Below, in pieces: positions 41,183-49,701 of a stretch of DNA of 64,000 bases; position 1 is the stretch's first letter; each line of letters opens with the position of its first letter. This stretch comes from Bradyrhizobium erythrophlei (lineage in GTDB: Bacteria; Pseudomonadota; Alphaproteobacteria; Rhizobiales; Xanthobacteraceae), in contig NZ_LT670849.1 in the NCBI RefSeq assembly GCF_900142985.1, forward strand, positions 1,674,001 to 1,738,000, in the 5' to 3' direction. The notes beneath the pieces were generated by a model that was given only the letters and a program-made list of their open reading frames with translations, had not been told where the DNA came from and ran no database searches. A program made the position numbers and the translations under genes.

Positions 41183-41968
41183 TTATTTTGGGCGGCCCCA
41201 GGGACCCGATGAAGGCCCCTGTGGAGGATCGGGTGGCAAGGGCGGCGGCCCCGGAGGCGCTTTCCCCTGATTTTTCGCCTGATCTTTCCCTTGATCTTTG
41301 CCGTGGGCTTCCTGCGCCGCTGACCGGCGGTCGGTCATAAAACCGAGGCCGCGCAAATAGATCAGCACTTCGGCTTCCAGAAGTTCCTCGGCCGACATCG
41401 GCAGCTTGCGCCGCGCCGCATCCCCACGGGCAAACAGCGACGCCACGCCGTGTGACATCGACCATATGTGAAGCGCCATCATCAGCGCCGGCGGCCGCGG
41501 CGAACCGGGTGGCGCCAGCGCGGCGAGGCGCTCGGCAGCAGCACGGATCACGGCAAAGGCGCGCTCGGCCGCAGCGTGCAAGCCCGCGCTGACGTCGGCC
41601 GCCAGCCCGGATTCGAACATCGCGGAATAGAACGCCGGCTTCTCGCGCGCGAAAGCGAGATAGGCTTTGCCGACCCGCTCGAACGCCGACACGGTATCGG
41701 GCCGCCCATCATCCCAGGCTTCCGACAGAGCGGATTCGAACTGCTCGAAACCGCGTTGCGCGATGTTCGACAGCAATTCGTCCCGGTCGCGAAAATGCCG
41801 GTACGGAGCCGCCGGACTGACACCGGCGATCCGCGCGGCGTCGGCAAAGGTGAAGCCGGCCGCACCTTTCGTGGCAATGAGGTCGAGCGCCGCTTGCAGC
41901 AGCGCCTCCTTGAGATTGCCGTGGTGATAGCCGCGCTCGGTGCGGCCGGGGTCTTTGCGCCAGCTCAT
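41183..41968 (-). CDS. TetR regulator with WHG-type C-terminal domain
   Basis: About 261 residues. The HTH (FTFADAARIAGVSPAAPYRHF) is within residues 25-75. The C-terminal region ALMMALHIWSMSHGVASLF is typical of the WHG (TetR_C_33) type. The C-terminal tail is Pro/Lys-rich (APPGPPPLPPDPP). The ATG at 41968 overlaps a copy of the operator and has no good ribosome-binding site, so the transcript could be leaderless. It is predicted to repress itself and the DUF2852 gene. Confidence 0.85.
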   Translation of the reverse strand: MSWRKDPGRTERGYHHGNLKEALLQAALDLIATKGAAGFTFADAARIAGVSPAAPYRHFRDRDELLSNIAQRGFEQFESALSEAWDDGRPDTVSAFERVGKAYLAFAREKPAFYSAMFESGLAADVSAGLHAAAERAFAVIRAAAERLAALAPPGSPRPPALMMALHIWSMSHGVASLFARGDAARRKLPMSAEELLEAEVLIYLRGLGFMTDRRSAAQEAHGKDQGKDQAKNQGKAPPGPPPLPPDPPQGPSSGPWGRPK

Positions 41969-41985
41969 GTAAATAGCTTTTACAT
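41967..41985. promoter_or_regulatory. TetR-type operator at its own start
   Basis: ATGTAAATAGCTTTTACAT covers the TetR start codon (41966-41968) and the bases ahead of it. The arms and the 5-base spacer equal those at 41111-41129, which predicts autorepression. Confidence 0.75.
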
Positions 41986-42083
41986 GAAGCCAGCCACGAT
42001 TAGAAGCCCGTGCGCCGCCAGCAAGCGGACCCACGGACTTCAAACCAGAACGCGGTTAGCGGACTTCTCGCCCCGAAGGCGAC

Positions 42084-42175: not shown

Positions 42176-42244
42176 TAGTGGTCCTCTGATTCTAACATTC
42201 GCAAAAGTGGCCGCCGAGAAGGGATGCGAATGTTCGGACCACTA
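42176..42244. repeat. palindromic repeat, variant copy 3
   Basis: 69 bases with outer arms TAGTGGTCC/GGACCACTA and inner arms AACATTCGC/GCGAATGTT. The final CTA of the right arm is the stop codon (TAG on the minus strand) of the gene ending at 42242. It lies 14 bases from copy 2. Confidence 0.88.
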
Positions 42245-42607
42245 GCCGCCCGGGATCGGGAGCACCGGCATGACTTCCACGGACTCGCCGGGGAAGATCG
42301 AGAAATGCGGATGGTCCTCGAACATCTTCGCCGCCGCTTCATGCGAGGCCGCACGGACCACCGTGAAGGCGCCCATCGCGTTGGTGACGTCGGCAATGCC
42401 CTGGGCATCGACTTTCTTGGTCTTGCCGAGAGGCCCGCCCATCTGGACGAGGGACGCCTGATGCTTCTCGACCCAGGCCTTCCACGCGGCCATCCCGCGT
42501 ATCTCGCGCGCTTTTCGCTCGGTCTCGGACAGCGCGTTCCACGCCGTCCACTTCGCACTGTTCTTGCTGCCAAGGAAGACAGCGAGGAAGGTGTCGTTCG
42601 TGCTCAT
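42242..42607 (-). CDS. YCII-like small protein
   Basis: 121 residues of a compact alpha/beta (ferredoxin-like) protein: FLAVFLGSKNSAKWTAWN at the start and the block GAFTVVRAASHEAAAKMFEDHP near 75-96, like YCII/DGPF relatives. Its start lies 36 bases after the stop of the DGPF gene, with AGGAG upstream, so it should be in one operon. It probably belongs to the ECF42 regulon. Its stop codon lies inside a palindromic repeat arm. The function is unknown. Confidence 0.8.
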   Translation of the reverse strand: MSTNDTFLAVFLGSKNSAKWTAWNALSETERKAREIRGMAAWKAWVEKHQASLVQMGGPLGKTKKVDAQGIADVTNAMGAFTVVRAASHEAAAKMFEDHPHFSIFPGESVEVMPVLPIPGG

Positions 42608-42643: not shown

Positions 42644-43054
42644 TCAGCACTTGGCCTGCATTTCGGTGAACCCGGCGGCGGCCTTCTGGACGTCGGGCGG
42701 GAAGTCCGTCATCTCGAAAACCTGTCGAATCTCGATGGTCTCGTTGTTGGCGGCCGGGCAACGTTTGGCCCAGGCGATCGCTTCCTCGCGCGACTTCACG
42801 TCGATCATCCAGTAGCCGCCGATCACCTCTTTCGACTCGGTGAAGGGACCATCGATGACGACCGGCTTGCCGCTCTCGAACGAGACCCGTACGCCCGAGG
42901 ACGGCGGGTGCAAACCGTCGAGGGTGATCAGGACGCCGGCTTCCTTCAGCGCCTCGTTGTATTTCATCATTGCAGCGACGGCTTCTGCCGGCGGCGTGGC
43001 GCCCGGCGCCGCGGTCTCATAGCCCCGCGGGATCATCAGCATCATAAAACGCAT
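42644..43054 (-). CDS. YCII family (DGPF) protein
   Basis: 136 residues with the signature DGPFTESKEVIGGYWMIDV near residues 67-85 and a start MRFMMLMIPRGYE. YCII/DGPF proteins are partners of ECF42 sigma factors. Upstream at 43111-43137 lies TGTCGG-N17-CGTC, the same promoter as at the sigma factor operon. The start has GGAGAA ahead. It is followed by a second YCII-like gene. Confidence 0.9.
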   Translation of the reverse strand: MRFMMLMIPRGYETAAPGATPPAEAVAAMMKYNEALKEAGVLITLDGLHPPSSGVRVSFESGKPVVIDGPFTESKEVIGGYWMIDVKSREEAIAWAKRCPAANNETIEIRQVFEMTDFPPDVQKAAAGFTEMQAKC

Positions 43055-43110
43055 CTTGTTCTCCGTTTTCGAGATCGGGAAGCCCCGGACAGGCCGGCGC
43101 TCCCCCATAT

Positions 43111-43137
43111 GACGATTGACGCCGGGCACTCCCGACA
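43111..43137 (-). promoter_or_regulatory. ECF42-type promoter (YCII pair)
   Basis: On the minus strand TGTCGG (43137-43132) is followed after 17 bases by CGTC (43114-43111). The same two boxes with the same spacing occur at 47972-47998 and 49675-49701. It is 57 bases ahead of the YCII start codon. Confidence 0.75.
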
Positions 43138-43193
43138 TGGGCCGAGGAATTATTTCAAACGACTTGGCGGCCCGGCGGGTCGCCATAGACGTC

Positions 43194-44393
43194 TCATTTC
43201 GCGGCGATCTCGCCGACCGTGGTCCAGAAATCCGAAAATACTGCCGGCGGCGTCGGCGAATCCATTACCCGCTGGGTCAAGAGAATGCCGGTGAGCTGTG
43301 CGTTCCGATCGGAATACCAGGTCGTGCCATAGCCACCGTCCCAGCCGAAGCGGCCGGGCGCGGCGTTCGGATCGTCGATCCCGGTGAAAACGGACAGGCC
43401 AAATCCCCAGCCCCGGGCGCTACCGAGGAACAATTGCGACTCGCGCTTCTCGTCCGGCACGATGGTGTTGGTCGTCATCAAACTGATGGATTCGCGCGAC
43501 AGCACGCGCGGGCTGCCCGCACCGCCAGCATCGAGCATCATCCGGGCGAAGGCGTTGAAGTCGTCCGCGGTCGAGACGAGGCCGGCTGCGCCGTTTTCAA
43601 ACACAGGCGGATTTGAAAATCGGCCCGTCACCGGAGGGTCGAAGACCTTCAACTGCCGCGCCGCGGAATCGTACATATAGGCGCTGGTGAATCGATAGTG
43701 TTTGTCTTTGGGCGCGTAGAAGGCGGTATCCTTCATGCCGAGCGGCGCAAAAATTCGCTCGTTCAGGAATTCGCCGAACGTCTTGCCTGCAACCCGCGCG
43801 ATCAGCACGCCGAGAATTTCACTGCCGGCGTTGTAGAGCCAGCGCTCGCCCGGCTGATAGACCAGCGGCAGGCTGCCGTAACGCCGCATCAGATCGTCGG
43901 GCGGAAACGACGGGAACACCGGTCCCGGCGCGAGACCCGCTTCCGCATAGGCCCGCTGAATCGGAAGACGTTCGGGGAAAACCGGAATCATGCCGTAGCC
44001 GCAATGGAAGTTAAGCAGATCGCGCAACGTGATCGCGCGGCGCGCCGGCACGGTTTGATGCACCAGCGCATCGGACCTGAGCAGCACCTTGCGATTGGCC
44101 AATTCCGGCAGCCATGGATCGACGGGGTCGTCGAGCTTCAAGCGGCCCTCCTCGACCAGCACCATCGCGGCCGCCGCCGTCACAGGCTTGGTCATCGAGG
44201 TGATGCGAAAAAGCGAATCGCGCAGCATCGAGGAACCTTCGAAGGCAAGCCGCCCGATTCCCTCGGCGTGGACTTCGCCGTGATGGCTGACCAGCATCAC
44301 GAGGCCCGGCACATCGCCGCGCTCGACGTGACCGGCCATCACACCCCGGAGCCGATCAAATCCCGCTTTCGAAATCCTGCCCTCACTCGTCAT
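43194..44393 (-). CDS. serine hydrolase, class C beta-lactamase fold
   Basis: About 399 residues. The nucleophile motif SMTK (in FRITSMTKPVTAAAAM, near residue 66) and the second motif YNAG (in GERWLYNAGSEILG) are present. Such EstB-type proteins are esterases or peptidases more often than true beta-lactamases. There is no signal peptide at the chosen start (44393), so it is likely cytosolic. It is divergent from the SDR gene. Confidence 0.88.
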   Translation of the reverse strand: MTSEGRISKAGFDRLRGVMAGHVERGDVPGLVMLVSHHGEVHAEGIGRLAFEGSSMLRDSLFRITSMTKPVTAAAAMVLVEEGRLKLDDPVDPWLPELANRKVLLRSDALVHQTVPARRAITLRDLLNFHCGYGMIPVFPERLPIQRAYAEAGLAPGPVFPSFPPDDLMRRYGSLPLVYQPGERWLYNAGSEILGVLIARVAGKTFGEFLNERIFAPLGMKDTAFYAPKDKHYRFTSAYMYDSAARQLKVFDPPVTGRFSNPPVFENGAAGLVSTADDFNAFARMMLDAGGAGSPRVLSRESISLMTTNTIVPDEKRESQLFLGSARGWGFGLSVFTGIDDPNAAPGRFGWDGGYGTTWYSDRNAQLTGILLTQRVMDSPTPPAVFSDFWTTVGEIAAK

Positions 44394-44519
44394 TCCGCCG
44401 TTTCCTTCCCGGTGATCTCTCTCTGGCGTCGGGTTCAAGGTCCTTTGCCGGGGCGCAACAAAGCAGAGCTGGGCCTTCCATGCTAGAGAGAAGGTAATGC
44501 AAGTCAGGATGGAACAGGC

Positions 44520-45308
44520 ATGACCGCTTCCTCGCAAAAAGTCGCATTGGTCACGGGCGCCGCTCGCGGCATCGGGCTTGCCGTGGCCAAACGCTTTCTC
44601 GCCGATGGCTGGCGCGTCGCACTGCTCGATGTCCTCGGTGAGCCCCTGGCAAAAAGCGTGGCCGCGCTGGCCAGGCCCGACGACACGCTAGCCCTGACTT
44701 GCGACGTTTCCGACGCCGGCGCGGTCGCTCTCGCATGTGCGGAGATCGAGCGCCGTTTCGAACGGCTTGACGCGTTGATCAACAACGCCGGCGTCGCGGT
44801 ATTCGAGCCGCTGATGGAAACCTCGGACGCGGACTGGAGCCGTGTGCTCGCGGTCAACCTCACCGGGCCATTCCTGTGCACCAAGGCCACGGTGCCCTTG
44901 ATGCGCCATCACGGCGGCGGCGCGATCGTCAACATTACTTCCATTTCGGGATTGCGCGCCTCGACGCTGCGCTCGGCCTACGGCACCAGCAAGGCGGGGC
45001 TCGCGCATCTGACCAAGCAGCTTGCGGTCGAACTCGCCGAACTCGGCATTCGTGTCAACGGCGTGGCGCCGGGACCGGTCGACACTGCGATGGCGAAGGC
45101 GGTTCACAGCGCGGAGATCCGCGCCGACTACCACGACGCGATCCCGCTTAACCGCTACGGTCTCGAGGAGGAACTGGCGGAGGCCGTGTATTTTCTTTGC
45201 AGCGACCGGGCAAGCTACATCACGGGCCAGATTCTTGCCGTCGACGGCGGCTTCGATGCGGCCGGCATCGGCCTACCGACGCTGCGCGGCGCGAGACGAA
45301 ACGGATAG
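44520..45308 (+). CDS. short-chain dehydrogenase/reductase
   Basis: 262 residues of a classical SDR. The NAD(P)-binding motif is TGAARGIG (about residues 12-19), the NNAG motif follows near 88, and the catalytic Ser-Tyr-Lys is visible as SISGLR...SAYGTSKAGL. The C-terminus DGGFDAAG is standard. The substrate is unknown. It is divergent from the serine hydrolase, 127 bases apart. Confidence 0.93.
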   Translation: MTASSQKVALVTGAARGIGLAVAKRFLADGWRVALLDVLGEPLAKSVAALARPDDTLALTCDVSDAGAVALACAEIERRFERLDALINNAGVAVFEPLMETSDADWSRVLAVNLTGPFLCTKATVPLMRHHGGGAIVNITSISGLRASTLRSAYGTSKAGLAHLTKQLAVELAELGIRVNGVAPGPVDTAMAKAVHSAEIRADYHDAIPLNRYGLEEELAEAVYFLCSDRASYITGQILAVDGGFDAAGIGLPTLRGARRNG

Positions 45309-45469
45309 AAGCCCGTCTCTCCAGCGAGCGAACTTGCTTATTTTTCGATTTCCTTCGCTGGCGCAGCGTGACCTTCGCGGCCTAACCACCTAAGATTGAT
45401 AAGCGCGGCGATGGTCCGGCGCCGTTGACAACGCTGAAACCGAACACCGGATCGGGGGAGTTTCGCGTC

Positions 45470-45759
45470 ATGTCGGGAATGCTCATCAGCCTTATCATCC
45501 AGATCATCAGTGGTGCAATCGGAGGCAACGTCGCCGCAGGCGCCGCCAAGAACATCGACCTCGGAACAATCGGAAACACCATCGCAGGCGCGATCGGCGG
45601 CGGCGCGGGGGCCAGCTTCTCGGTATGCTGATTCCGCTGCTTGCCAATTCCGCCTCGACGCCGGATATCGGCAGCATCATCGGCCAGGCAGCCGGTGGCG
45701 GAGTTGCAGGCGCTGTCCTCACCGCGATTGTCGGCGCACTGAAGAACCGCACCGCCTGA
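45470..45759 (+). pseudogene. glycine-rich small protein interrupted by a frameshift
   Basis: Starts MSGMLISLIIQIISGAIGG at 45470 with GGGGGAG upstream and continues as NIDLGTIGNTIAGAIGGGAG. At a run of five G (45607-45611) the frame shifts and stops at 45631. In the other frame the expected continuation reads GQLLGMLIPLLANSASTPDI and then GSIIGQAAGGGVAGAVLTAI up to a TGA at 45757. One extra G would join the halves into about 96 residues with tandem GG-rich segments. It could be a true mutation, phase variation, or a base-calling error in the homopolymer. Confidence 0.75.
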
Positions 45760-46020
45760 CTTGGCTGATCTACTGATCGGCTGGCATGGCTCGATCGATG
45801 CCAGAGCGCGCGCCCGGTTGGGCGCGCGAGCTGTGAATGCCTGCGCCGCGTTGCCAGGACCGCGTGGAGTCGGGCGGAACACGGTGCGGCCTTTTTCTGG
45901 CCGCATCTCTCGGCAGATCGTCGAATACACCGGAACCTTGGCGCAGGTCTTGCAATTGCCTACCCATCCTGGAGACTTTGCCCCCGAAAGACTTGGCAGT
46001 CTCGGCAAGATGGAGGGTTG

Positions 46021-46461
46021 ATGCGGAAACTTTTCGTCGGAATTTGCTCCGTCACTCTGACTTTGTGTGCGCTCGCGACATCGCCGGCTTACGCTGAAGT
46101 TCGAATCCTGGCGAGCCCGGGCGGACAGGTCGGCCCCTTTCTCGACCTGTTCGAAAAGGTGCGCGAGTCCGGTGAGCGCGTCGTCATCGACGGCCCCTGT
46201 CTTTCCGCGTGCACACTGGTGCTGAGCATGGTGCCGAGTTCGCGCATCTGCGTCACGCGCCGTGCGGTGCTCGGATTCCATGCCGCAAAGTCGATGGACC
46301 GGCGCGGCCGGATGTATACGGAGCCGGAGGCCTCAGCACTGGTGCTCCAGGCCTATCCGTCCGGCGTTCGCGACTGGATCGTTCATCGCGGCGGATTGAC
46401 CTCGCGGCTTTTGCTGTTGCGCGGCCGTGAACTCGCCGCGCTCTATCCGAGATGCCGCTGA
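46021..46461 (+). CDS. small secreted protein with a ClpP-like serine motif
   Basis: 146 residues: a signal peptide ending at about ATSPAYA, then VRILASPGGQVGPFLDLFE, and GPCLSACTLVLSMVPSSRIC, resembling the nucleophile elbow of Clp/SDH-type serine proteases. A later AVLGFHAAK could supply the His. The Cys pair may form a disulfide. This is a conserved-looking Bradyrhizobium-type family; activity is unproven. The ATG at 46021 overlaps an upstream TGA. Confidence 0.75.
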   Translation: MRKLFVGICSVTLTLCALATSPAYAEVRILASPGGQVGPFLDLFEKVRESGERVVIDGPCLSACTLVLSMVPSSRICVTRRAVLGFHAAKSMDRRGRMYTEPEASALVLQAYPSGVRDWIVHRGGLTSRLLLLRGRELAALYPRCR

Positions 46462-46483
46462 CCAATCCGTTTCGCGGAACGCC

Positions 46484-46894
46484 CTACATCCCTTGCAGCG
46501 GCGAGTTCACCATCCAGGGGATGCCGAACTGGTCGATGCACATGCCAAAGCCCTTGGAGAAGAAGGTCTTGCCGAACGGCATGTTGAGGCTGCCGCCTTC
46601 GGCCAGTGCATTGAACTTGCGCTCGGCTTCGATGGGATCGTTGATCGTTAGCGAGACCGCAAAACCCTGCGGCTTGTGAAAATGCTCCGGCGGAGAATCC
46701 GAGGCCATCAGCACCTGGCTGCCGATCGACATGCGCGCATGCATGATCAGTTTCTCCCGGCCCGGCCCTGGCTTCATATCTTCGGGCCCTTCATCGGCAC
46801 GCAACATCATTTCGATTTTGCCGCCGAGCACCTTTTCGTAAAACTTGAAGGCGGCCTCGCAATTGTCGTTGTAAAACAGATAGGGATTGAGCAT
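46484..46894 (-). CDS. PhnB-like VOC family protein
   Basis: 136 residues of the glyoxalase/VOC fold: NPYLFYNDNCEAAFKFYEKV at the start and GKTFFSKGFGMCIDQFGIPW near the end. PhnB-type proteins often accompany ECF42/DGPF sets. It lies 19 bases after the SRPBCC gene with AAGGAGG ahead, third in the DoxX-SRPBCC-VOC operon. The substrate is unknown. Confidence 0.9.
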   Translation of the reverse strand: MLNPYLFYNDNCEAAFKFYEKVLGGKIEMMLRADEGPEDMKPGPGREKLIMHARMSIGSQVLMASDSPPEHFHKPQGFAVSLTINDPIEAERKFNALAEGGSLNMPFGKTFFSKGFGMCIDQFGIPWMVNSPLQGM

Positions 46895-46913
46895 CGCGTC
46901 CTCCTTGGGTTTC

Positions 46914-47462
46914 TCAGGCCTTCTTTTCAGCGAGCGTTTTCAGGTTGGCGAGACCGGTTTCGAAATCCCTGCCGATCATCTTGTCGAAGTCCATGAACAC
47001 CTGCATCACCTTGGACATGAACGATGACGGGCCTCGCATCACCCAGATGACGTTGGTTGCGCCGGCCTCACGCTCCGGTACGAAGGTGAACTCGGCCGTA
47101 TTGTGAGCTTCGAACGGCTTGAGGAAGTCGAGCTTGATCGTGATTTTTGACGGCGATGAGGCGTCGAGAATTTCCATGCGGCCGGAACCGACATTCTTGT
47201 TCCCGTCCCACGCATAGACGGCGCCCTTGCCACTCTCGGCGCCACCGTAAGTGCGCTTCAGCGCGGGATCCCGGTTCTCCCACGGCGACCACTTCGTCCA
47301 CTGATGAAAATTATTGATCAGCGGGAAAACCGCTTCCGCCGGGGCCTGCATTACTGCCGACCGCTGGATAGCGAACGTAGCCGGCTTGGTCGAAGCGAGG
47401 ATCAGAACGATCGCAATCGCGATCGCCAGGATGACGGCGATGATGGCAATGATCTCAAGCAT
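46914..47462 (-). CDS. SRPBCC family protein with N-terminal membrane anchor
   Basis: 182 residues. The first 25 form a membrane helix (IIAIIAVILAIAIAIVLIL). The SRPBCC hydrophobic-pocket domain follows: FPLINNFHQWTKWSPWEN, then AYAWDGNKNVGSG-like and EFTFVPEREAGATNVIWVM. It may bind lipophilic ligands. Second gene of the putative ECF42-controlled operon, 27 bases after DoxX. Confidence 0.85.
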   Translation of the reverse strand: MLEIIAIIAVILAIAIAIVLILASTKPATFAIQRSAVMQAPAEAVFPLINNFHQWTKWSPWENRDPALKRTYGGAESGKGAVYAWDGNKNVGSGRMEILDASSPSKITIKLDFLKPFEAHNTAEFTFVPEREAGATNVIWVMRGPSSFMSKVMQVFMDFDKMIGRDFETGLANLKTLAEKKA

Positions 47463-47489
47463 GGAGTGCTCCCATTTCAGTCAACGAAA

Positions 47490-47936
47490 TTAGCGTACGA
47501 ACGGCAACAGCGAGCGCAGTCGCCCATCGCGCAACCACAGGCCGCCCCACACCATCACACCAAGATAGAACCCGAAGAGAATGTGGGTGAACAACGGACT
47601 TCCGATCCTCACATGCGAGGCCATCGCGCCACCGAGATAGCCGGTCATCAGGATCGCCCCGACGAATGCAGTCGGCGGAAAAGCGTAGAGCGCTGTGCAG
47701 ATCAGGCTGATCGCACCCAGGCATCGCGCGAGGCTTTCGCTCGAACCATAGCCCATCCTGTCCATCGTCTCCGTGACAATTGGCCACGGCACGAGCTTGA
47801 TCGCGCCATCCAGCAGCATGAACAGAATGACGAGGCCGCTTGTTGCACGGCCCAGCCAGATCGCCGGCCTCGACACCGCGGGCGTGGGCGTTCCAGGCAT
47901 GGCATTCCCGGTATAACCGACATCTTGCGTCTTCAT
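47490..47936 (-). CDS. DoxX-like membrane protein
   Basis: 148 residues with four hydrophobic segments (first: ATSGLVILFMLLDGAIKL; second: ISLICTALYAFP). The DoxX family contributes to redox or electron-transport roles in several bacteria. The start at 47936 has GGGGA ahead. Its own ECF42-type promoter (47972-47998) lies between the sigma factor stop and this gene. Confidence 0.85.
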   Translation of the reverse strand: MKTQDVGYTGNAMPGTPTPAVSRPAIWLGRATSGLVILFMLLDGAIKLVPWPIVTETMDRMGYGSSESLARCLGAISLICTALYAFPPTAFVGAILMTGYLGGAMASHVRIGSPLFTHILFGFYLGVMVWGGLWLRDGRLRSLLPFVR

Positions 47937-47971
47937 GGTCGCGTCCCCTATCGCGCATCTCATGACCTCAA

Positions 47972-47998
47972 GACGAACGGAGGAACGGCGGGCCGACA
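47972..47998 (-). promoter_or_regulatory. ECF42-type promoter (DoxX operon)
   Basis: TGTCGG (47998-47993) and CGTC (47975-47972) with a 17-base spacer on the minus strand, just after the sigma factor stop and 36 bases before the DoxX start. Confidence 0.75.
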
Positions 47999-48009
47999 GA
48001 CCCCTCAAA

Positions 48010-49284
48010 TTATTTTTTATTTTTTGCGGCCGCCGCACCCTGGCTGTCGCGGATCAGCCGGTCCAGGTGCATGCGGATGTGGGCGGCCTCGGCCGAGGTA
48101 TTGGCCAGCGCAATGGCGCGATCGAAGGCCACGCGCGCCTCTTCGTTGCGGCCAAGCTGCATCAGGAAGGCGCCGCGGACGCCGAAATAATGAAAATAGT
48201 TCGACAGCCGCTCACCGAGCGGTTCGATCATTTGCAAGGCAGCTTCCGGCCCGCGCACCTTGGACGCAGCCACCGCGCGGTTGAGCGTGATGACCGGCGA
48301 TGGCTGCATGATCTCCAGCGTGCCGTAGAGCAGATCGATCTGAGCCCAGTCGGTGTTTTCAGGCTTTGTCGCGTGCGAATGCAACGCCGCAATCGCCGCC
48401 TGCACCTGATACGGCCCGGAGCGGCGATGCCGCATCGCCTTGTCGATCAAGGCCTGGCCCTCGTTGATCAGCTTCTCGTTCCACAGCGTGCGATCCTGAT
48501 CCTCGAGCAGGACCAGTTCGCCGTTGGTATCGAACCGCGCCGGGGCGCGCGAATGCTGCAACAGCAACAGCGCGGTCAGACCCATGATCTCGGGCTCGCT
48601 CTGGAACAGGCGGAGCAACAGCCGCGCCAGCCGGATCGCTTCCTCGCACAGCGGCATGCGAATCTCGCAAGTTTCGCCGCTCGCCGAATAACCCTCGTTG
48701 AAGATCAGGTAAATCATCGCAGCGACCGCAGCGAGCCGCTCGCTGCGTTCGACCGCGCCGGGCGTTTCAAAGGCCACGCCGGCGCTGGCGACCTTTGCCT
48801 TGGCGCGGGTGATGCGCTGCTCCATCGCCGGTTCCGTTACCAGGAAGGCGCGTGCGATCTGCTTCACCGAAAGGCCGGAAACGATGCGTAACGCGAGCGC
48901 AATCTGCTGAGTCGCCGGCAGGTCAGGATGGCAGCAGATGAACAACAGGCGAAGGATATCGTCACGGTAGTGCGAACCGTCGAGCCGCTCGGCAATCTCT
49001 TCCTCGGCGTCGTCGAGATCGGAGATGGCCACGTCGTCGGGCAACGCTTCCTGCTTATGCGACCGGCGGACCTCGTCGATCGCAGCATTACGTCCGACCA
49101 TGATCAGCCAGGCCGCGGGATCGCGCGGCGGCCCGTTTTGCGGCCAGCTTTTCAGGGCGCGCAGGCAGGCGTTCTGGAACGCCTCTTCCGCGGTATCGAG
49201 ATTGCGAAAATAGCGCAGCAATGCGCCAACGGCCTGGGGACGCGCCGAAGTCAGGGCTGCATCGATCCAGGCGGTATCGGTCAT
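48010..49284 (-). CDS. ECF42 group RNA polymerase sigma factor
   Basis: 424 residues. Sigma region 2 is in the first 80 residues (DTAEEAFQNACLRALKSW, then VGRNAAIDEVRR), region 4 near 110-165 (SGLSVKQIARAFLVTEPAME), and the long C-terminal part (DUF6596 and TPR-like, with TLNRAVAASKVRGPEAAL) is the hallmark of ECF42. The upstream YCII gene overlaps by ATGA. No anti-sigma gene is present, as usual for the group; control may pass through the C-terminal domain. Three matching promoters nearby suggest its regulon. Confidence 0.92.
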   Translation of the reverse strand: MTDTAWIDAALTSARPQAVGALLRYFRNLDTAEEAFQNACLRALKSWPQNGPPRDPAAWLIMVGRNAAIDEVRRSHKQEALPDDVAISDLDDAEEEIAERLDGSHYRDDILRLLFICCHPDLPATQQIALALRIVSGLSVKQIARAFLVTEPAMEQRITRAKAKVASAGVAFETPGAVERSERLAAVAAMIYLIFNEGYSASGETCEIRMPLCEEAIRLARLLLRLFQSEPEIMGLTALLLLQHSRAPARFDTNGELVLLEDQDRTLWNEKLINEGQALIDKAMRHRRSGPYQVQAAIAALHSHATKPENTDWAQIDLLYGTLEIMQPSPVITLNRAVAASKVRGPEAALQMIEPLGERLSNYFHYFGVRGAFLMQLGRNEEARVAFDRAIALANTSAEAAHIRMHLDRLIRDSQGAAAAKNKK

Positions 49285-49649
49285 TTCGCGCCTGCGCCGG
49301 GTTCGTAAAATCCGACCGGGCGAATTTCATAGGCACCACCCGGATTGGCCGCACCAAGTTCGCGCGCCACGTCGACAGCCGCATCGAGATTTTCGCAGTC
49401 GATGATGTAGAAGCCGAGCAGCTGCTCCTTGGTCTCGGCATAGGGGCCGTCCAGCACCAGCGGCGGATCGTCCTTGCGCAGCGTCGTCGCTGCCGTGGTC
49501 GGCAGCAGGCGGGCGACCGGGCCCAGCCGCCCCTCCTTCTTCAACTTGTCCTGGACGACGATGAGCTTCGACATGACGTTCGCATCATGTTCGCGGGTCC
49601 ACGAGCCGACCAAATCCTCATCATGATAGCAAAGTATGGCATACAGCAT
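49281..49649 (-). CDS. YCII family (DGPF-type) protein
   Basis: 122 residues. The start is MLYAILCYHDEDLV and the signature reads LDGPYAETKEQLLGFYIID (about residues 66-84). It precedes and overlaps the ECF42 sigma factor gene. The ECF42-type promoter at 49675-49701 lies 26 bases upstream, so the sigma factor probably autoactivates. The long upstream in-frame extension is not protein-like. The function is unknown. Confidence 0.9.
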   Translation of the reverse strand: MLYAILCYHDEDLVGSWTREHDANVMSKLIVVQDKLKKEGRLGPVARLLPTTAATTLRKDDPPLVLDGPYAETKEQLLGFYIIDCENLDAAVDVARELGAANPGGAYEIRPVGFYEPGAGAK

Positions 49650-49674
49650 GGGAAAAGCTCCTTTGTGGCCCAAG

Positions 49675-49701
49675 GACGCTTGGGAAGACTTCATTCCGAC
49701 A
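49675..49701 (-). promoter_or_regulatory. ECF42-type promoter (YCII-sigma operon)
   Basis: TGTCGG (49701-49696) and CGTC (49678-49675) with 17 bases between on the minus strand. The spacing and both boxes equal those at 43111 and 47972. Confidence 0.78.

Follow-up and report, generated by a model that had tools for sequence, protein, structure and literature searches.

RpoE10 and the ECF42 locus of Bradyrhizobium erythrophlei

The closest described counterpart of the locus analysed here is that of RpoE10, an extracytoplasmic function (ECF) sigma factor of Sinorhizobium meliloti. In Lang et al. 2018 (PMC6180224), the source of the published statements on RpoE10 below, overexpression of RpoE10 raised the units behind the sigma gene and in trans (SMc01149-48 and SMb20475-74), and the printed promoters of three units all conform, by our count, to TGTCGG-N17-CGTC. 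Two of these promoters end nine bases past CGTC; with this end taken as the transcription start, CGTC would occupy positions -12 to -9 and TGTCGG positions -35 to -30. A 64,000-nucleotide stretch of Bradyrhizobium erythrophlei (contig NZ_LT670849.1, positions 1,674,001 to 1,738,000; hereafter, the window) very probably encodes the Bradyrhizobium counterpart of this system, working by the mechanism proposed below, as three exact TGTCGG-N17-CGTC boxes on its minus strand accompany the gene of an ECF42-type sigma factor. The arrangement of boxes before the leader gene, behind the sigma gene, and in trans has already been described for RpoE10. What is new here is that the last base of the -35 element (base 6) covaries with residue 155 of the sigma factor, which suggests that this single residue chooses that base.

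Other ECF42 factors resemble the window factor in part. Those of Streptomyces venezuelae (Liu et al. 2018, as cited in PMC8999054 and PMC9023288) share its extension rich in tetratricopeptide repeats (TPR) at the C-terminus, which is required for activity there, and a YCII partner gene is given as a feature of the ECF42 group (PMC8999054). ECF-10 of Pseudomonas putida also belongs to ECF42; its gene context is said to resemble that of RpoE10 (PMC6180224), and a second-hand account in PMC8999054 ties it to antibiotic and oxidative stress and to biofilm. No phenotype for a Bradyrhizobium ECF42 factor was found in the literature searched. EcfQ of B. japonicum was considered as a possible relative and rejected, as it is an ECF33 factor. 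The -35 element of the S. venezuelae ECF42 factors is reportedly TGTCGA, unlike the TGTCGG of the window type.

The features of the locus are as follows; predicted transcription starts are placed by analogy with the S. meliloti promoters (PMC6180224).

49675..49701, minus strand: box 1, TGTCGG-N17-CGTC, predicted leader promoter of the YCII-sigma operon, predicted start at about 49666
49281..49649, minus strand: YCII (DGPF-type) protein, 122 amino acids (Pfam PF03795, 72.5 bits)
48010..49284, minus strand: ECF42 sigma factor, 424 amino acids, with sigma2, sigma4, DUF6596, and a TPR-like C-terminal region (Pfam, profile search against the PDB, structure model)
48820..48822, minus strand: Glu155 codon; this residue, proposed to read base 6 of the -35 element, lies in the sigma4 recognition helix (151-167)
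47972..47998, minus strand: box 2, TGTCGG-N17-CGTC, directly 3' of the sigma stop codon and 5' of DoxX-SRPBCC-VOC, predicted start at about 47963
47490..47936, minus strand: DoxX-like membrane protein, 148 amino acids (Pfam DoxX_2, 59.4 bits against a cut-off of 26.3)
46914..47462, minus strand: SRPBCC (Polyketide_cyc2) protein (Pfam), with an N-terminal hydrophobic segment judged by eye from the translation
46484..46894, minus strand: VOC or PhnB-like protein resembling YjdN (Pfam Glyoxalase/3-dmu-9_3-mt, above the cut-off)
43111..43137, minus strand: box 3, TGTCGG-N17-CGTC, predicted to drive the second YCII pair from a start at about 43102
42644..43054, minus strand: second YCII protein, 136 amino acids (Pfam PF03795, 86.8 bits)
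42242..42607, minus strand: YCII-like partner, 121 amino acids (Pfam YCII below threshold, 19.3 bits against a cut-off of 24)

The first YCII gene overlaps the start of the sigma gene, box 3 lies about 5 kb past box 2, and the start codons follow the ends of boxes 1, 2, and 3 at distances of 25, 35, and 56 nucleotides. Domain content and gene context identify the sigma factor as ECF42-type. Pfam places Sigma70_r2 at residues 15-75, Sigma70_r4_2 at 114-164, and DUF6596 at 183-284, and the same scan gives no match to a sigma3 domain. In a profile search against the PDB, the N-terminal part matches ECF sigma factors and positions 372-408 match TPR proteins, whereas a search of solved structures with the single sequence gave no match. 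The structure model has a mean pLDDT (predicted local distance difference test) of 87.9, and its C-terminal extension is mostly helical. The hallmarks of the group are present, namely, a C-terminal extension (approx. 200 residues in the group) with TPR-like repeats, an adjoining YCII/DGPF gene, and a promoter of the TGTCG / CG(A/T)C type 5' of the factor's own operon; no ECF42 group model occurs among the Pfam or NCBIfam matches of the window proteins. Eight window proteins were scanned without a match to any anti-sigma family, the small membrane DoxX protein not having been tested for such a role.

The window shares with the RpoE10 system the YCII-sigma operon, a box right 3' of the sigma gene, TGTCGG-N17-CGTC at three units, and Glu155 in the sigma factor. 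In both, the unit behind the sigma gene includes a gene for a hydrophobic-ligand (SRPBCC) protein and a glyoxalase-like gene, and a third unit lies in trans. However, a DoxX gene precedes the SRPBCC gene in the window, about six boxes are found in the window's genome, and its extra unit is the second YCII pair, whereas that of RpoE10 consists of a glyoxalase-like gene and an unknown gene. In the S. meliloti locus L434 (CP090106.1), the leader and post-sigma boxes stand exactly as printed, and the sigma factor has Glu155. This record is titled pSymB; because dnaA and hemW lie beside the RpoE10-type locus, it looks like a mislabelled chromosome.

Conservation of the boxes and the wider regulon

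A sequence-only reading of this DNA had pointed to identical boxes with a 17-base spacing at 49675-49701, 47972-47998, and 43111-43137 on the minus strand, and all three are exact matches. Statistics within the window are borderline: when spacers of 15-19 bases are allowed, four matches are found against 1.61 expected, and four or more occur in 8 of 100 shuffles. It is conservation that decides whether the boxes are real. Loci around orthologous sigma genes were taken from the best 80 of 303 relatives found, all Bradyrhizobium, at 82-90% identity (1,496,059 bases in total). These loci contain 229 copies of TGTCGG-N17-CGTC on the sigma strand and none on the opposite strand; as controls, other spacers of 12-23 bases give at most 47 matches, and no single-base variant at N17 exceeds 22. 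The spacer sequences vary among the conserved boxes, and the logo additionally shows enrichment of T 9-12 bases upstream, as well as an extended -10 element, about CGTTCGTCTT. At the leader position, the exact box is present in 57 of the 80 loci, and a box ending in CGTC or CGTT in 77; a box follows the sigma gene within 700 nucleotides in 61. The boxes are real and not chance matches.

In the 7.5 Mb genome, the exact N17 pattern yields 25 matches and its reversed control 13, so about half of the 25 look like background. A model of the variable box positions, trained on 219 distinct boxes of relatives, sets six of the 25 apart, with scores of 16.6 (box 2), 15.0, 12.2, 11.9 (box 3), 4.1 (box 1), and 3.8; the seventh-ranked match scores -8.4 and the remainder lower. 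The regulon thus probably exceeds three units. The three high-scoring boxes outside the window lie 5' of a major facilitator superfamily (MFS) transporter gene, a glutathione S-transferase (GST) cluster, and ku. Two of them (L029:3487 and L029:5878; C1:7372460-7374877) lie on one strand, 2.4 kb apart, and precede the MFS transporter gene and GST-ArsR-AHSA1-(unnamed frame)-DUF1801; at E <= 1e-60, a search of 60 genus genomes recovers the GST from its own genome and from none of the other 59. Searches of the same genome for the boxes of the two ECF42 paralogs described below gave 24 and 16 matches against 15 and 12 for the controls.

That one ECF42 sigma factor serves all three boxes, as the sequence-only reading had it, is the best-supported interpretation, given the same box, strand, and spacing, the genus-wide conservation, and the RpoE10 precedent. 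Its further claim of a three-unit, self-controlling regulon holds for the shared boxes, but probably not for the number of units, and self-control is in doubt (see below). In the proposed mechanism, the sigma factor would be controlled via its own TPR-type C-terminal extension and not by a separate anti-sigma factor, in line with the published group model. It would bind RNA polymerase and open promoters with TGTCGG at -35 to -30, CGTC at -12 to -9, and 17 bases between them; its targets would be its own YCII-sigma operon, DoxX-SRPBCC-VOC, the second YCII pair, and additional units outside the window. The two other ECF42 sigma factors of the genome would be insulated chiefly through base 6 of the -35 element and, for one of them, also through the -10 element, and Glu155 of the recognition helix would read the C that pairs with G at -30.

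Base 6 of the -35 element and sigma residue 155

The genome encodes three DUF6596 sigma factors, each behind a YCII-like gene (judged by eye for the other two). Their leader boxes are TGTCGG-N17-CGTC in the window, TGTCGT-N17-CGAC in L033, and TGTCGA-N17-CGTC in L034, and base 6 is therefore G, T, or A. In a tree of 130 sigma sequences (two short rows removed; Bradyrhizobium represented by 10 of its 80 loci), all 47 rows with TGTCGG/CGTC fall into one 56-row clade (Shimodaira-Hasegawa-like approximate likelihood ratio test, SH-aLRT, 100) and none outside it; five TGTCGT/CGAC rows form one clade (SH-aLRT 99), and 35 TGTCGA rows are scattered over the rest. No box could be typed for 43 of the 130 rows. 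Nine of these belong to the TGTCGG clade, where five have TGTCGG-N17-CGTT, one has TGTCTC (L123), and three show nothing clear. In one locus, L119, both a TGTCGA and a TGTCGG box lie upstream of a single G-type operon, at -731 and -412 from the sigma start; the same genome also carries an A-type ECF42 factor (L205), and a cascade between the paralogs is possible.

Covariation was assessed in 220 distinct sigma factors (20 of the 80 Bradyrhizobium loci included) by means of the leader pattern TGTC-N19-CG(A/T)C, in which bases 5 and 6 are free and which is matched by chance in approx. 0.014 of loci at even base use, by our arithmetic. In the 138 sigma factors with a leader box, E155 is accompanied by G6 in 63 of 63 cases, and A, G, S, L, or T at 155 by A or T in 70 of 73; Q155 occurs once with C6 and once with G6. 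A box within 400 nucleotides behind the sigma gene is found for 54 of 83 E155 factors versus 13 of 137 others. In this larger set, two sigma factors outside the TGTCGG clade, L276 and L307, also have TGTCGG.

A further test drew on 22 named loci from a plasmid collection (out of 250 + 20 records). E155 goes with TGTCGG in all five cases, and R155, found in two Roseibium of one lineage, with TGTCGC in both the leader and the post-sigma box. In Mesorhizobium INR15, Q155 is paired with TGTCGT approx. 30 nucleotides 5' of a VOC-YCII-sigma operon; L123, the TGTCTC locus mentioned above, has Q155-R156. Plasmid loci with A, S, or G at 155 have TGTCGA in the N17-CG(A/T)C form in six cases (L419, L420, L422, L424, L429, and L432), the boxes of L419 and L424 lying more than 800 nucleotides upstream of the sigma gene and those of L420 and L422 on a divergent YCII strand. 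TGTCGA is also found in L427 (with CGTT) and L425 (with N18), L430 has TGTCAA, and four plasmid loci have no box. A TGTCGC in L433 was taken as spurious, as it lies inside both flanking IS6100 copies. In the cyanobacterial loci L420 and L422 (Leptolyngbya and Nostoc plasmids), the YCII gene is divergent from the sigma gene, and two TGTCGA-N17-CGAC boxes stand approx. 80 nucleotides apart on the YCII strand. In a 48-row tree built by a quick method, the Arg, Gln, and Gln-Arg rows lie mutually apart inside the Glu clade, and there are thus three separate departures from E155, each with a changed base 6 (C for Arg, T for Gln, C for Gln-Arg).

In the structure model, residue 155 lies in helix 151-167. 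The first Arg of TVRSRIFR in AlgU corresponds to R171 of E. coli sigmaE. E155 aligns with this Arg in a profile alignment to the P. aeruginosa AlgU structure (6in7). In published work, M181 of M. tuberculosis sigmaH makes contact with -31/-30 and is partly responsible for specificity there, which an alanine variant of M181 relaxes at both positions; in C. glutamicum, R170 or M170 contacts the template-strand base at position five of the -35 element, the reading by R170 being modelled. Base 6 is this fifth base when the invariant G2 is counted first. The +1/+5 pattern of the helix appears to match M181/S182/R186 of sigmaH and M170/S171/R175 of C. glutamicum, and by this analogy residue 155 would correspond to the residue that reads this -35 position in other ECF factors. 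The pairings of Glu with G (a template-strand cytosine), of Arg with C, and of Gln with T are in keeping with contacts commonly made between amino acids and bases.

It can be proposed, tentatively and with slightly less than even confidence, that residue 155 of ECF42 factors is a natural one-residue/one-base switch (Glu for G, Arg for C, Gln for T, and small residues for A or T at -30), which would insulate duplicated ECF42 sigma factors so that regulons become assignable from sequence alone, and that the Bradyrhizobium Glu type has also captured the ku promoter, in overlap with a more ancient stress promoter of the GGAAC type. Should the rule for residue 155 hold, the targets of each ECF42 paralog would be predictable in any genome, and the paralogs would be ready-made orthogonal switches. 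The rule was not found in the titles and abstract openings surveyed on ECF42, DGPF/YCII-linked sigma factors, ECF reclassification, and ECF specificity residues, a sample that does not cover the main ECF classification and rewiring papers, so it may exist in print. A second rule, linking residue 156 to base 5 (K with C, R with T), is not claimed because K156 also occurs with T (L218), Q156 with TGTCTA (L163), and A156 with TGTCGA at N18 (Rhodococcus). For the third base of the -10 element (T or A), no clear determining residue emerged (best excess information, 0.28).

Several observations weigh against these proposals. The YCII leader of S. meliloti, SMc01151, was not raised by RpoE10 overexpression, which the authors attribute to overlap of its motif with the mapped start (PMC6180224); autoregulation of the window YCII-sigma operon may fail on the same grounds, and box 1 has a low model score. 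The boxes might also be true ECF promoters read by another factor, either an ECF42 paralog or an ECF41-type factor with a CGTC -10 element. Three ECF42 factors in one genome could engage in cross-talk over a one-base difference, and an S. meliloti ECF41 promoter contains TGTCACA and CGTC (PMC6180224); however, the leader boxes of the two paralogs carry different bases at position 6, neither of them G, and TGTCGG tracks the window-type clade, with every TGTCGG-typed row of the 130-row tree inside and none outside (L276 and L307 being the exceptions in the larger set), which makes this explanation improbable. Chance matching in a GC-rich genome, to which the weak window statistics and the background-like half of the genome matches might point, has a negligible probability and is already refuted by the complete strand bias at one spacing in the 80 loci and by the separation of six boxes by their flanking bases.

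As regards residue 155, the counts leave aside the 82 of 220 sigma factors without a leader box, and G6 also occurs with G155 (L276), S155 (L218), A155 (L261), and Q155 (L307). Most E155/G6 rows are not independent because they form one clade; only the three departures are. Residues 40, 67, and 188 split G from non-G typed rows as cleanly as residue 155, and the information about base 6 is 0.87 at position 6, 0.86 at 155, 0.84 at 126, and 0.84 at 107. The sigma factor might then read the boxes while other clade residues (such as 40, 67, 188, or 159) determine base 6, Glu155 being a passenger of ancestry, a view favoured by the several positions that split the groups fully or nearly so and by the equal informativeness of positions 6, 126, and 107. 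It is rendered unlikely by the fact that each of the three departures carries a new base 6 and by the location of residue 155 at the contact position described for other ECF factors.

The ku promoter and the genes behind the boxes

In the window's own genome, a TGTCGG-N17-CGTC box overlaps GGAAC 5' of ku (L031:1398-1424; C1:5949397-5949423). The exact box precedes ku in 24 of 30 Bradyrhizobium loci (L357-L386; the sample takes a single ku locus from each of 30 genomes out of 40). An alignment of 24 ku loci, selected by their GGAAC and CTT, shows conservation of 0.96-1.00 in the unforced TGTC and TCGT columns, against 0.33-0.75 for upstream bases and mostly 0.46-0.83 for the spacer, although the following GAATCC also reaches 0.88-0.96. 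Outside Bradyrhizobium, none of 27 ku loci (16 + 11), at least eight of them from genomes with a window-type sigma factor, has the box, and several show GGAAC-type boxes instead. The EcfG regulon published for Sphingomonas melonis includes ku, with a GGAAC promoter. In the Bradyrhizobium loci, TGTC precedes none of 38 generic GGAAC sites. From the presence of the box in Bradyrhizobium, its absence elsewhere, and the lack of TGTC before generic GGAAC sites, the composite ku promoter (putative ECF42 plus GGAAC) seems to be an acquisition of Bradyrhizobium. In the window's own genome, this ku copy contains an in-frame stop after 27 codons, and ku is matched a second time at C1:295357.

Among the boxes of relatives and the window (232 in total, three from the window), 216 are followed by a coding frame starting within 300 nucleotides, at a median box-to-gene distance of 32 nucleotides. 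The first genes are leader YCII (52), other YCII (38), DoxX (32), SRPBCC (25), GST (22), RibD-like (18), VOC (9), SnoaL-like (9), sigma (6), and others (5); the GST-, SnoaL-, RibD-, ArsR-, AHSA1-, and TetR-like names are our own reading of the sequences. In two Roseibium plasmids, the unit 3' of the sigma gene is annotated as SRPBCC followed by DoxX. The recurrent targets (DoxX, SRPBCC, VOC, YCII, and GST) look like functions for handling small reactive or foreign compounds. The lead on function seen in the sequence-only reading is less new than thought, the arrangement having been described in S. meliloti. The gene names of that reading agree with Pfam for YCII, sigma, SRPBCC, VOC/PhnB-like, and DoxX; the partner gene in the second YCII pair stays below threshold. 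ECF42 factors are widespread, and the window together with 80 relatives yields a concrete list of candidate targets (YCII, DoxX, SRPBCC, VOC, GST, SnoaL-like, RibD-like, and ArsR-AHSA1).

The VOC protein scores 75.4 bits against the NCBIfam YjdN model, under the cut-off of 122, and the cluster of the YCII-like partner (42242..42607) is present in 28 loci, the window included. A short-chain dehydrogenase-like gene (by eye) lies on the plus strand at 44520-45308, between the VOC gene and box 3. A serine-hydrolase gene at 43194-44393 (Pfam Beta-lactamase) ends just upstream of box 3; its counterpart is the first gene directly behind the box in two related cases (one of them L052), so this gene, too, is a possible target. 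The second YCII pair is followed by a TetR-like gene (by eye; window 41183-42043), and a TetR-like cluster is found behind boxes in 21 related loci.

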